From a bacterium (GTDB lineage: Bacteria; UBP4; UBA4092; JAOAEQ01), in NCBI GenBank assembly GCA_026416715.1, contig JAOAEQ010000013.1:1-64000 (forward strand): a stretch of 64,000 nt of DNA, read 5' to 3'. Shown one piece after another: positions 45,176 through 50,574 of the stretch. Below the pieces are notes generated by a model, which was not told where the DNA came from, did no database searches, and saw nothing but the letters and a program-made list of their open reading frames with translations. Position numbers and translations under genes: made by a program. The stretch's first letter is position 1, and the number at the start of each line of letters is the position of its first letter.

Positions 45176-46342
45176 ATGTATCATTTTGACTGTCGATATT
45201 TTGTTGGTGAAAAACCATGTAAGTTTAAAGTTGTTTGTCAAGGATGTTCTCATTACGCCCCGGTAAGTGAACGGATTCTGATCATTAAACTTGCTGCTAT
45301 TGGAGATGTCCTGCGCACGACCCCCCTTCTGACCGGATTAAAAAAGAAGTATCCTCGTTCGTTCATAACCTGGTTAACCGATCCCGGTGCAGCAGAACTA
45401 TTGAACAATATTCCCGAACTTGACCGCCTGTTGAGGTATAACGGAGCGGAAACATTAACTCGTTTACTCGTTGAACGATTTGATATTTTGATTTGTTTGG
45501 ATAAGGAAGTTCGGGCAACGGGATTAGCAATGCTGGTTAATGCGCAGGATAAAATTGGTTTTGGATTAAATCAGTTTGGAACAATATTCCCATTTGATAC
45601 TCGCAGCGAATATGCGTTTGAACTTGGGGTGAATGATGAATTGAAATTTCGGTTGAATCGAAAAACCTATCCGGAAATTCTCTATGAAATGGTTGGGTTA
45701 CCGTACCATAAAGAAGAATATGTATTTCAGCTGGCAGAATCATCCTGGCAAAAAGCTAAAGAAAAAGCTAAACAATGGAAATTCGCTCCGACGGATTTAA
45801 TCGTCGGATTAAACACTGGCGCTGGTTCAGTGTTCGCAACGAAAAAATGGACGATTTCGGGATTCATAAAGCTTGCGGAATTGATTTATAAAAAATATCA
45901 ACCAAAGGTTAAACTCCTTCTCCTTGGGGGACCGGAAGAAATCGGACGAAATCAGGAAATCTTGAAAAACAGTAGAGTTCCGCTTATTGATACTGGCACC
46001 GATAATAGTTTAACGGATTTTAGCGGACTGATTAACCTATGCGATATCGTTATCACTGCTGACTCTCTAGCAATGCATTTAGCAATCGCGTTGAAGAAAC
46101 ATGTGGTTGCATTGTTCGGACCAACGGTAGCGCAGGAAATAGAATTCTATGGTCGTGGCGAACCGGTTATTGCTCGGGCGGATTGTGCGCCTTGCTATCG
46201 ACAAAAATGCAATCAATTGATCAGCTGTATGGATCGGCTTGAAGCGAAAACGGTATTTCGTGCTGTTGAAAAAGTAGTGGACAAACTTAATAGGAAGAAG
46301 ACTCGAAAAACGAAAATGCGGTTGTCTTCGTCTCGGCTTTAG
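45176..46342 (+). CDS. GT9 heptosyltransferase-like glycosyltransferase
   Basis: A glycosyltransferase family 9 protein (388 aa), usually adding heptose or a related sugar to the LPS core from an ADP-activated donor. Key region: ILIIKLAAIGDVLRTTPLLTGL, TGAGSVFATKKWTISGF, VKLLLLGGPEEI and NLCDIVITADSLAMHLAIAL, followed by ALFGPT. Before the domain is a cysteine-rich N-terminus (C6, C15, C21, C24 in FDCRYFVGEKPCKFKVVCQGC). The C-terminal KKTRKTKMRLSSSRL tail is basic. It is in line with the following HypD-like gene. Confidence 0.88.
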   Translation: MYHFDCRYFVGEKPCKFKVVCQGCSHYAPVSERILIIKLAAIGDVLRTTPLLTGLKKKYPRSFITWLTDPGAAELLNNIPELDRLLRYNGAETLTRLLVERFDILICLDKEVRATGLAMLVNAQDKIGFGLNQFGTIFPFDTRSEYAFELGVNDELKFRLNRKTYPEILYEMVGLPYHKEEYVFQLAESSWQKAKEKAKQWKFAPTDLIVGLNTGAGSVFATKKWTISGFIKLAELIYKKYQPKVKLLLLGGPEEIGRNQEILKNSRVPLIDTGTDNSLTDFSGLINLCDIVITADSLAMHLAIALKKHVVALFGPTVAQEIEFYGRGEPVIARADCAPCYRQKCNQLISCMDRLEAKTVFRAVEKVVDKLNRKKTRKTKMRLSSSRL

Positions 46343-46348
46343 CCGAGA
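46331..46348 (+). other. Hairpin across the GT9 stop codon
   Basis: TCTCGGCT-TT-AGCCGAGA (46331-46348) is a perfect 8-bp stem with a two-base loop that includes part of the stop codon (46340-46342). There is no U tract, so it looks like an attenuating or processing stem before the HypD-like gene. Confidence 0.5.
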
Positions 46349-46396
46349 GTGGTACCCAATTTATGGGATATGTTAGCACTGGAGGTTAAGTAGCTT

Positions 46397-47275
46397 TTGT
46401 TATACTCGCATCACTATTTCAAACAGATTATTCTAAACGAAATTAACCAGCGAATTGTTCGGCCAGTGCGGATTCTCAACTTCAACCCAATTGCTGAACA
46501 TGACTTGATGCAAAAGCTCCAAGTCCAACTGCCGCAACAGATAACTATTATTAATCCATACAACTTGTTTCCTGAATCCATAATCCGAAAGAAAATTGCT
46601 GAACTTCAACCGTTGTTCCACACCCAGCCTAAATCTCATATAGTTCTCCTCTATGATTTTAGTCAAACAGAAGTCGGAACTGAAATCATTAGCACATTGA
46701 AAACCGACGGTATCTCGGTTAAGATAATCGCCTCACCACCTGAAATAATTAAACTAGCCCGGGAAAATAAAGACTGCGAATTCTATGTAATTGCTGCGGG
46801 ATATGAACCATTAGCCGCCTTGATTGCCGCAACTATTTTGACCGCAAAACATCAACAATTAACCAATATCCATCTCTTGGCTGAATTATATATTACTTCG
46901 GCGATTGTTCCAGTTGTTTATCATCAACTCAACGATGGTGTAGATGGTATGTTTCTGCCCGGTGAACCTGCGGCAATATCAGGATTTAAAATTTATGAAA
47001 AGTTAATTCGTCAACTTGCGGTTCCCTGTATTATCGTAGGTAGTGAACCGATCGATATTCTCCAAGCCATATCCATGCTGTTAGCGCAAATTGAACAGAA
47101 TACGACAAAATTGGAAATCCAATATCGACATGCGATCCGACCAGAGGGAAATCCGATTGCGTGCACCAAATTGGAATCAGTATTTCGTGTGGTTGAAAGT
47201 TTTTGGCGCGAGTATGGAACGATACCGGCAAGTCAATTTGTTCTCAAAGATGAATTTGCCCAGTTTCAAGGTTAG
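46397..47275 (+). CDS. HypD-like protein lacking all functional cysteines
   Basis: A 292-residue protein clearly related to hydrogenase maturation factor HypD. Matching stretches: RPVRIL at 22-27, IKLAREN (118-123), FYVIAAGYEPLAALIAATIL (129-148), FLPGEPAAISGFKIYE (186-201), PCIIVGSEPIDILQAISMLL (210-229), QYRHAIRPEGN (242-252) and a WREYGTIPASQFVLKDEFA end. But CGTHT is replaced by NPIAE (30-34), GPGCPVC by an INPYNLF-like segment (about 52-58), and the C-terminal 4Fe-4S cysteine region is missing. It cannot do HypD chemistry as known. GGAGG lies 11 bases before the TTG start. It is followed 30 bases later by the transporter genes. Confidence 0.85.
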   Translation: MLYSHHYFKQIILNEINQRIVRPVRILNFNPIAEHDLMQKLQVQLPQQITIINPYNLFPESIIRKKIAELQPLFHTQPKSHIVLLYDFSQTEVGTEIISTLKTDGISVKIIASPPEIIKLARENKDCEFYVIAAGYEPLAALIAATILTAKHQQLTNIHLLAELYITSAIVPVVYHQLNDGVDGMFLPGEPAAISGFKIYEKLIRQLAVPCIIVGSEPIDILQAISMLLAQIEQNTTKLEIQYRHAIRPEGNPIACTKLESVFRVVESFWREYGTIPASQFVLKDEFAQFQG

Positions 47276-47304
47276 GGGTAAGCTCATTGTTTCCGGTGGA
47301 TACA

Positions 47305-49686
47305 ATGCAAAAAACTAATTTGTTGTATTTAACCCTATTGCTGATACTATCGCTAACACTATTTTCTTTCGCACAGGATAAAACGCGGTTGGTTATCTGG
47401 GGATTTCCGGAAGATGAATCCTGGGTAGGCGTCCATGCGCAAGCGAAATATTTCGAAAAACTCCATCCAAATGTTGAAGTTGTTATGGGAGTTCCGGGCG
47501 GTCGTGGTGGAATGGATCCGCAGAAATTGATGACCGCTATCGCCGGCGGGACACCGCCAGACTTGATTTGGCAAGATAGATTTGCGGTTGGCAGCTGGGC
47601 AGCCCGTGATGCTTTTCTTGCCCTAGATGATTTAATCGCGCGTGATTCTGTTAACCCGAATGAATATTATCCCGCTTGCTGGCAAGAAACGATATATCAA
47701 GGACACGTGTATGCCCTACCCTATAACACTGACGCACGCGCTTTATATTACAACAAAGATTTATTCCGTGAAGTTGGACTTGACCCTAATCGCCCACCTA
47801 AAGATTGGGATGAATTGGAAGTATATGCAAAAAAACTAACTAAATTCGAGAATGGCAAACCGATTCGTATGGGGTTTATTCCGAATTTTGGCAATTCTTG
47901 GTTATATCTCTACGGATGGCAAAATGGTGGCGAGTTTATGAGTCCGGATGGAAAAATCTGTACGCTAAATGACCAAAGAATTGTTGAAGCGTTAGAATGG
48001 ATGGTTAAAGTTTATGATATGCTTGGCGGTCGAGCGAAAGTCGTTAGCGGTTTCGAAGCTGGTTTTCAAGGACAGATAACGGATGCGTTTAATATTGGCA
48101 AAGTTGCAATGAAAATTGATGGCGACTGGTGTTTAGATGGGATAGCTCGGTATGCACCGAACTTGAATTTTGGAGTTGCTCCGCCACCTTCACCGAAAGG
48201 TAAACCAATTATCACCTGGTCTGGTGGATTTTCACTTGCAATACCAGTCAGTGCAAAACATCCGGAACTCGCTTGGCAATTCGCAAAATGGATGAACTCA
48301 ATCGAGGGCAATATTTACGGAGGTAAAATTCAGCAAGAGTTTAACCGAAAGCATGGTAAACCATTTTATATTCCACGAATGTCTGCAAATAAACAAGTCA
48401 ATCAAGTGCTGTTTTCTACCTTTCTTCCCGATGACCCGAATTATCAATCAGCAATAAAAACATTTCTCGATTTACTTGAAGTTAGTCGATTTCGACCTGT
48501 TACTCCAGTCGGTCAATTACTTTGGGACGAACATGTTCGTGCATTCGATGACGCAAGCTATCACATTCGGACTCCAAAGGAAGCATTAGATTTTGGAACT
48601 AAAAATGTTCAAAAAGAATTAGATAAAATATTTAAAAAGAAACCATATAAACTTCTGAATGTTCCGATTACTTTAACGATCGTCTTTCTTTTAGTAGGAA
48701 TGGTATTTTTGTATTTAATAATTCGTTTCCTTATTGCGCTTCCTCGAAATGCTATTGGAAGACAAGAAGCGTTTACTGGGTTATTATTCGCTTCTCCATG
48801 GCTCTTGGGATTTTTGATTTTTACTATCGGACCGATAGTTGCAAGTATCATATTTAGTTTTTGCGAATACGACGTACTCCATCCAGCAAAATGGGTCGGA
48901 TTCGATAACTACCTCAATCTGTTATGGTTCAAAGTTGAGACAAGTAGTGAATCAGCTACCTATACTAAAGTTTTTACAGTGAATGACCCACTCTTCTGGA
49001 AAAGTATCTGGAATACCGTTTATATGGCAATTTTTGGGGTACCACTTTCGATGCTCCTCAGTTTATCTATTGCGATGCTCTTAAACACTAACGTTCGCGG
49101 CATGACACTATATCGGACTATTTTCTATCTTCCAGCGATTGTTCCGGTAGTAGCAAGTACTATCTTATGGCGTTGGTTTTTAAATCCGCAGACCGGAATA
49201 ATGAATGTCCTTCTTTCTTATATTGGAATTACCGGACCGAATTGGATTGGTGACCCTCTATGGACGAAACCTGCATTAATTATCATGCTTCTCTGGGGTG
49301 CAGGTGGGGGAATGATAATTTGGCTAGCGGGATTGAAAGGTATCCCGGAACAACTCTATGAAGCAGCAGAAATTGACGGCAGCAATTGGTGGCAACGATT
49401 CTGGCATATCACCATTCCGATGTTAACCCCGTATATTTTCTTCAATCTGATTATGGGCATTATTGGATATTTTCAAATATTCACGCAAGCATATTTATTG
49501 GGTGGACCAGCGGATTCATTATTATTTTATGTATTAAATTTGTTTTTCCAAGCATTTCAATATTTTAAAATGGGATATGCTTGTGCAATGGCATGGATTT
49601 TATTTTTGATTATCCTTGGGTTGACTATTGTCCAAATTAAACTTGCCCCACGCTGGGTACATTATGAGCTAGAACGGAAGTTCTAA
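47305..49686 (+). CDS. Sugar ABC transporter: solute-binding protein fused to permease
   Basis: A 793-residue fusion. A signal peptide (LLYLTLLLILSLTLFSFAQ) leads into a family 1 extracellular solute-binding domain (about residues 25-430; GGTPPDLIWQ, YALPYNTDARALYYNKDLF, GKVAMKIDGDW). A hydrophobic linker (TLTIVFLLVGMVFLYLIIRF) then joins a MalF-type permease (about 480-793) with the EAA loop GIPEQLYEAAEIDGSNWWQR. Binding and translocation subunits are thus covalently tethered. The substrate is probably an oligosaccharide or sugar, by family. I chose ATG 47305 (GGTGG 7 bases upstream) over TTG 47287. Confidence 0.92.
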   Translation: MQKTNLLYLTLLLILSLTLFSFAQDKTRLVIWGFPEDESWVGVHAQAKYFEKLHPNVEVVMGVPGGRGGMDPQKLMTAIAGGTPPDLIWQDRFAVGSWAARDAFLALDDLIARDSVNPNEYYPACWQETIYQGHVYALPYNTDARALYYNKDLFREVGLDPNRPPKDWDELEVYAKKLTKFENGKPIRMGFIPNFGNSWLYLYGWQNGGEFMSPDGKICTLNDQRIVEALEWMVKVYDMLGGRAKVVSGFEAGFQGQITDAFNIGKVAMKIDGDWCLDGIARYAPNLNFGVAPPPSPKGKPIITWSGGFSLAIPVSAKHPELAWQFAKWMNSIEGNIYGGKIQQEFNRKHGKPFYIPRMSANKQVNQVLFSTFLPDDPNYQSAIKTFLDLLEVSRFRPVTPVGQLLWDEHVRAFDDASYHIRTPKEALDFGTKNVQKELDKIFKKKPYKLLNVPITLTIVFLLVGMVFLYLIIRFLIALPRNAIGRQEAFTGLLFASPWLLGFLIFTIGPIVASIIFSFCEYDVLHPAKWVGFDNYLNLLWFKVETSSESATYTKVFTVNDPLFWKSIWNTVYMAIFGVPLSMLLSLSIAMLLNTNVRGMTLYRTIFYLPAIVPVVASTILWRWFLNPQTGIMNVLLSYIGITGPNWIGDPLWTKPALIIMLLWGAGGGMIIWLAGLKGIPEQLYEAAEIDGSNWWQRFWHITIPMLTPYIFFNLIMGIIGYFQIFTQAYLLGGPADSLLFYVLNLFFQAFQYFKMGYACAMAWILFLIILGLTIVQIKLAPRWVHYELERKF

Positions 49687-49710: not shown

Positions 49711-50574
49711 ATGGTGATTTATCTGTTTAATCCTATGAAACAGAAAGAGATAATTAAACATATCATTTTGCATACCGTATTAATCATCGGTGCAATAATT
49801 TTCGCGCTGCCATTCGTGTGGATGCTGGCAACGTCGTTAAAAACTGATTTACAGATTGAAGATGTCAGTTCAATCTATCGCATGCTCGTCCCGAATCCGG
49901 TGCAATGGAGTAATTATTATAAAGCATTAACCTATATATCCTTTTTGAAATATCTGTGGAATACAATATATGTAACCATTATGTCAATTATTGGAGTAAT
50001 TATTTCATGTTCTTTAGTCGCCTATTCTTTTGCGCGACTCCGCTGGCCAGGTCGTGATGCAACGTTTCTTGTTCTCTTAAGCACTATGATGTTACCTGCG
50101 CAAGTTACCATGATTCCGATATTTTTGATTTTTACTAAACTTGGGTGGGTTAACACCTTAAAACCACTTTGGGTACCAGCATTTTTAGGCAATGCGTTTT
50201 TTATCTTCTTATTACGTCAATTCTTTTTAACCATCCCGACTGATTTAGAAGATGCGGCGAAAATTGATGGCTGTTCGTATTTCTCAATTTTTGTTAGGAT
50301 TATGCTCCCGTTAATCCGTCCAGCAATTGCCACAGTAGTTATCTTCCAATTTATGGGTGCGTGGAACGATTTTTTAAATCCATTGATTTATATTCATGAT
50401 AAAGATTTAATGACACTTTCTCTTGGACTTCAATCTTTTTTTAATCTCCACGGCGCTGAATGGAGCAAACTTATGGCAGCATCGACAATGATGACACTTC
50501 CGGTCATCCTTCTCTTCTTTTTCGCACAAAAACATTTTATTCAAGGAATAACCTTAACCGGTATTAAAGGATAA
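49711..50574 (+). CDS. Carbohydrate ABC transporter permease (MalG-type)
   Basis: The partner inner-membrane permease (about 287 aa): six spans, with the EAA loop IPTDLEDAAKIDGCSYFSI followed by LPLIRPAIATVVIFQFMGAWNDF. It begins 24 bases after the fusion gene. ATG 49711 and ATG 49735 are both possible starts, neither with a strong ribosome site. No ABC ATPase gene follows, so a shared MsmX/MalK-type ATPase encoded elsewhere is probably used. Confidence 0.93.
   Translation: MVIYLFNPMKQKEIIKHIILHTVLIIGAIIFALPFVWMLATSLKTDLQIEDVSSIYRMLVPNPVQWSNYYKALTYISFLKYLWNTIYVTIMSIIGVIISCSLVAYSFARLRWPGRDATFLVLLSTMMLPAQVTMIPIFLIFTKLGWVNTLKPLWVPAFLGNAFFIFLLRQFFLTIPTDLEDAAKIDGCSYFSIFVRIMLPLIRPAIATVVIFQFMGAWNDFLNPLIYIHDKDLMTLSLGLQSFFNLHGAEWSKLMAASTMMTLPVILLFFFAQKHFIQGITLTGIKG

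Follow-up and report, generated by a model that had tools for sequence, protein, structure and literature searches.

We asked what a relative of HypD that has lost its cysteine motifs might do in line with sugar-transporter genes, as found in a 64,000-nucleotide stretch of bacterial DNA (the window). HypD, the maturation scaffold of [NiFe]-hydrogenases (PF01924, TIGR00075, PDB 2z1d/3vyr), is usually regarded as having one conserved function, with every cysteine important. The original prediction had recognised the family from sequence motifs, and a profile search confirmed the relationship: HypD (PF01924) was the sole Pfam match of the 292-residue protein (7.4e-45, 154 bits, cut-off 25), spanning approximately 270 residues and profile positions 18-287 of 351. 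A phmmer comparison with the HypD entry 2z1d gave 4.6e-23. The NCBIfam hypD equivalog (TIGR00075) was matched at 145.8 bits, which is under its cut-off of 192.8 and places the protein outside that group, and comparison with PHROGs returned nothing meaningful. Judged from homology, a HypD-like fold of domains 1-2 is likely. A single-sequence AlphaFold2 model was of poor reliability (pLDDT 43, pTM 0.40).

The HypD-like protein was aligned with 50 canonical HypDs drawn from genome searches, using MAFFT and in addition a second alignment. Seventy-four columns are at least 90% conserved in the canonical proteins; the HypD-like protein retains 25 of these, another 20 lie in gaps or past its end, and the remaining ones are changed. 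The predicted loss of the catalytic and cluster cysteines was borne out at each site (Table 1). N30, within the NPIAE that stands for CGTHT, occupies the position of C41, which is Cys in 100% of the canonical set. The GPGCPVC segment is Cys-free, although its NPYNLF replacement lies at a 4-residue gap in the MAFFT alignment and its register is uncertain. The protein terminates ahead of C323-C360, so that the four-Cys 4Fe-4S region is missing. Three Cys are present (126, 209 and 256), none of them at a functional HypD site. Elsewhere PGHVS reads PGEPA and GFEP reads GSEP. In HypD, the proposed role of C41 is to bind the iron jointly with C2 of HypC, C69 and C72 form a thiol pair, and the four C-terminal Cys bind the 4Fe-4S cluster (PMC12134894). 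The single exchanges C69A or C72A abolish hydrogenase maturation, as does exchange of a single cluster Cys; exchanges in GFETT alone were tolerated (PMC9900092), and the change of GFETT to GYEPL therefore says little. With all of the catalytic sites gone, and in light of these published mutants, the HypD-like protein by its sequence cannot carry out the known chemistry of HypD.

The losses are unevenly spread. The first third is 16-18% identical to canonical HypDs, which are 43-44% identical to one another there, whereas the last third reaches 38% against 44-48% among the canonical proteins and keeps GSEPIDILQAI, PEGN, WR and GTIPxS. One functional HypD residue is still present, the equivalent of D98, which in HypD helps to place the HypE tail (PMC12130793). 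The protein thus resembles HypD in its homologous core, in the patterns EPxDILQAI, Yx(6)EGNxxA, WR and GTIPxS and in the D98 equivalent, and differs from it in the absence of C41, C69, C72 and the four cluster Cys, in the changed GFETT and PGH motifs, in its early end, in its score below the equivalog cut-off and in the position of its gene away from hyp genes.

Table 1. Features of the HypD-like gene, its product and its neighbours (positions in the window).
Feature	Position	Strand	Basis
GT9 glycosyltransferase gene, 5' neighbour	45176..46342	+	Pfam PF01075; block conserved in sister genome G001
GGAGG, ribosome-binding-like sequence	46381..46385	+	11 nt 5' of TTG; read from sequence
HypD-like ORF, 292 aa, cysteine motifs gone, no 4Fe-4S region	46397..47275	+	ORF list, profiles, alignments
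NPIAE, replacing HypD CGTHT (C41 Fe ligand, E. coli numbering)	46484..46498	+	50-HypD alignment
NPYNLF region, replacing GPGCPVC (C69/C72 thiol pair), no Cys	46553..46570	+	both alignments
D87, equivalent of E. coli HypD D98 (HypE tail contact), kept	46655..46657	+	both alignments
GYEPL, replacing GFETT	46799..46813	+	50-HypD alignment
PGEP, replacing PGHV; His 100% conserved in canonical set	46958..46969	+	50-HypD alignment
C-terminal third, residues 206-292, near-normal HypD conservation	47012..47272	+	identity by thirds
Solute-binding protein-ABC permease fusion, 3' neighbour	47287..49686	+	PF01547, PF00528
Second ABC permease	49711..50574	+	PF00528

By the available signs in the sequence, namely start, frame and codon use, the HypD-like ORF looks like a working gene. 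It begins with TTG at 46397 and stops 11 nt short of where the following ORF could first start. Its own frame has a codon-use coding score of 0.263, within the range of the window genes (0.225-0.523), while its other frames score from -0.36 to -0.92. The synonymous codon bias of 0.066 is the lowest among the 52 window ORFs, as would be expected of weak expression or of a recent relaxation. When the genome's own hypD was allowed to decay neutrally to 35% identity, the sequences acquired a mean of 11.3 stops and an intact frame survived in 0 of 400 runs. This simulation used substitutions only, and speaks for most of the divergence and not for the present day. Since simulated decay always brought stops and the real frame is intact, the frame was kept by selection through most of the divergence. 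A frameshifted copy of hypD, which had been named as an outcome that would undo the prediction, is ruled out by the intact frame and its gene-like codon use, and there is no space for the missing region ahead of the next ORF.

The host genome (2.96 Mb in 64 contigs) carries a canonical hypD on another contig (C2:92374-93429, 509 bits), adjoined by hypC, hypF and hypA in a hypA-hypF-hypC-hypD cluster, and it encodes two [NiFe]-hydrogenase large subunits. No HypE was found in those parts of the genome that were read. Linkage of hypD to hyp or hydrogenase genes is usual and not strictly defining. As predicted, hydrogenase genes are absent from the neighbourhood: a motif scan of the rest of the 91-kb contig that holds the HypD-like gene found no hyp or hydrogenase motifs. 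The canonical HypD of the genome is of the same family and is 46% identical to the HypD-like protein in the last third; overall the identity is 26%, which ranks 30th of the 50 HypDs. It also shares fewer rare residues with the HypD-like protein than do the best dozen other HypDs, and a recent local duplication is therefore not indicated. The HypD tree gives the HypD-like protein a branch length of 9.15 changes per column, and it neither establishes nor rejects a common clade with the canonical HypD of the host genome (p-AU 0.52).

No closer relatives were found in approximately 520 genomes, in plasmid and phage records, or in two narrow scans of approximately 85,000 species. A survey of 386 spread genomes gave best matches of 120-124 bits, in open frames of canonical length, and left a few low-scoring HypD matches uninspected (for example in G349, G324 and G370). 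In G001, the only other genome of the phylum that was compared, there is a single canonical HypD, and the HypD-like gene is missing. Neighbouring phyla picked by Ffh similarity yielded only canonical-looking HypDs or nothing, at E limits of 1e-33 to 1e-36 that would miss more distant forms. Plasmids (114 records) gave an annotated hypD as the best match, and viral contigs scanned with canonical HypD patterns again gave only canonical-looking HypDs or nothing. One phage record (MT836795.1:5319-6158; 8.7 kb, Bacteriophage sp., human faeces) contains a HypD-like stretch with 24% identity to the window protein; this is probably a bacterial sequence that entered a phage collection. The first pattern scan of the approximately 85,000 species was built from the single protein, and the second from invented degenerate variants of it that served solely to widen the patterns; the scans are narrow, and a thinly spread subfamily could thus have been missed. 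The literature searched held no report of HypD-like proteins acting outside maturation.

The HypD-like gene lies on the same strand as its neighbours, 54 nt after the GT9 gene and 11 nt ahead of the ORF for the solute-binding protein-permease fusion. The block FtsW/RodA, radical SAM, RNase G and GT9 is also present in G001; there the GT9 gene is followed by an M48-type peptidase (named by how its sequence looks rather than from a profile match), with neither a HypD-like gene nor an ABC transporter. The HypD-like gene thus stands at a synteny break relative to G001. The host genome has an orthologue of this peptidase (43.6% over 562 aa) near its canonical hyp cluster, and this position suggests a rearrangement between the GT9 region and the canonical hyp region; the two peptidase places are L062:17826-19511 and L086:9530-11146. 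The GT9 protein has an N-terminal Cys-rich stretch, C-x8-C-x5-C-x2-C (DCRYFVGEKPCKFKVVCQGC), which recurs in the GT9 homologues of G001, G220 and G078 and may be a metal site. A perfect hairpin with no T tract (CTCGGC-TTTA-GCCGAG, 46332-46349) lies between the GT9 and HypD-like genes and is not repeated within the window. The solute-binding protein-permease fusion is a single ORF of 799 aa, and no ATPase gene lies directly beside the permeases on that strand.

The reading that we prefer, with a probability of about 0.55, is of a pseudo-HypD: a strongly diverged and shortened HypD relative that is kept as a coding gene and has lost the chemistry of HypD. Such a HypD-derived pseudo-maturase, known from a single genome, would probably be a binding or scaffold protein. 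It would retain the two-lobed alpha/beta core of HypD, act by binding a partner protein or a small ligand, be constrained mainly in its last third, and have no catalytic part in Fe(CN)2CO assembly. The gene might instead be a relic, a hypD copy that was long under selection and is now decaying while still free of stops. Its low codon bias, the loss of the 3' domain of hypD, its position at a synteny break with the sister genome and its absence from G001 are all in keeping with such a history; we regard it as unlikely, however, given the intact 292-codon frame with a good start signal and a clean end just before the next ORF, the gene-like codon use and the C-terminal third that is still conserved.

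Other roles can be envisaged for the protein. It could bind canonical HypC or HypE with no chemistry of its own and so regulate hydrogenase maturation or act as a decoy, for which the genome offers canonical hypC and hypD, two [NiFe]-hydrogenases and, in the protein itself, the residue equivalent to the HypE-tail contact (PMC12130793). Little weight can be put on a single Asp kept in a part of the protein where conservation is poor, though, and C41, the partner Cys for HypC, is gone, HypE was not found in the stretches read, and the gene has no hyp or hydrogenase neighbour; we consider this role quite improbable. The earlier proposal of re-use in carbohydrate metabolism would make the protein a cytoplasmic binding or regulatory partner of the adjacent ABC sugar importer or of GT9, in line with the shared strand and the short spacings. 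This proposal was not supported. The GT9 block of G001 continues with the M48-type peptidase, and conserved linkage to GT9 is thereby ruled out; the GT9 gene is part of another block, itself conserved, and the searches found no second case of the HypD-like gene that could show linkage to transporter or glycosyltransferase genes. With adjacency in one genome and no promoter or terminator signal beyond chance, we hold such a partnership to be highly doubtful.

For the pseudo-HypD, a further step is possible, which we advance tentatively: the HypD fold would have been taken wholly out of metal-cofactor assembly, and the protein would now bind, sense or regulate while carrying out neither metal nor redox chemistry. 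If true, HypD would for the first time have a branch whose function lies outside hydrogenase maturation. A relative under selection without the cysteine motifs would show that the two-lobed HypD core is useful without metal chemistry, and would be a natural tool for parting scaffold binding from the redox steps. A case from a single genome is a lead only. For annotators it is a caution that a Pfam HypD match alone does not imply hydrogenase maturation.

The hydrogenase genes of the host genome offered observations of their own. An MvhA-like [NiFe]-hydrogenase large subunit (genome G000, contig C36, L069:1387-2850; approximately 16550-18013 in L098) reads TGA, in frame, in place of the second Cys codon of its L1 motif (RICGV-TGA-PGAHH) and has a normal L2 motif (DPCFSCATH). 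Since the genome encodes a tRNA-Sec (70.7 bits; ARAGORN anticodon tca), this unusual L1 site likely carries selenocysteine; a hairpin 3' of the TGA was no stronger than those of shuffled sequences. A selenocysteine-containing MvhA2DG has been reported in Desulfobacterium autotrophicum (PMC2702500). In the same hydrogenase cluster an HdrA-like ORF (L098:9999-10826) stops early, at 275 aa.
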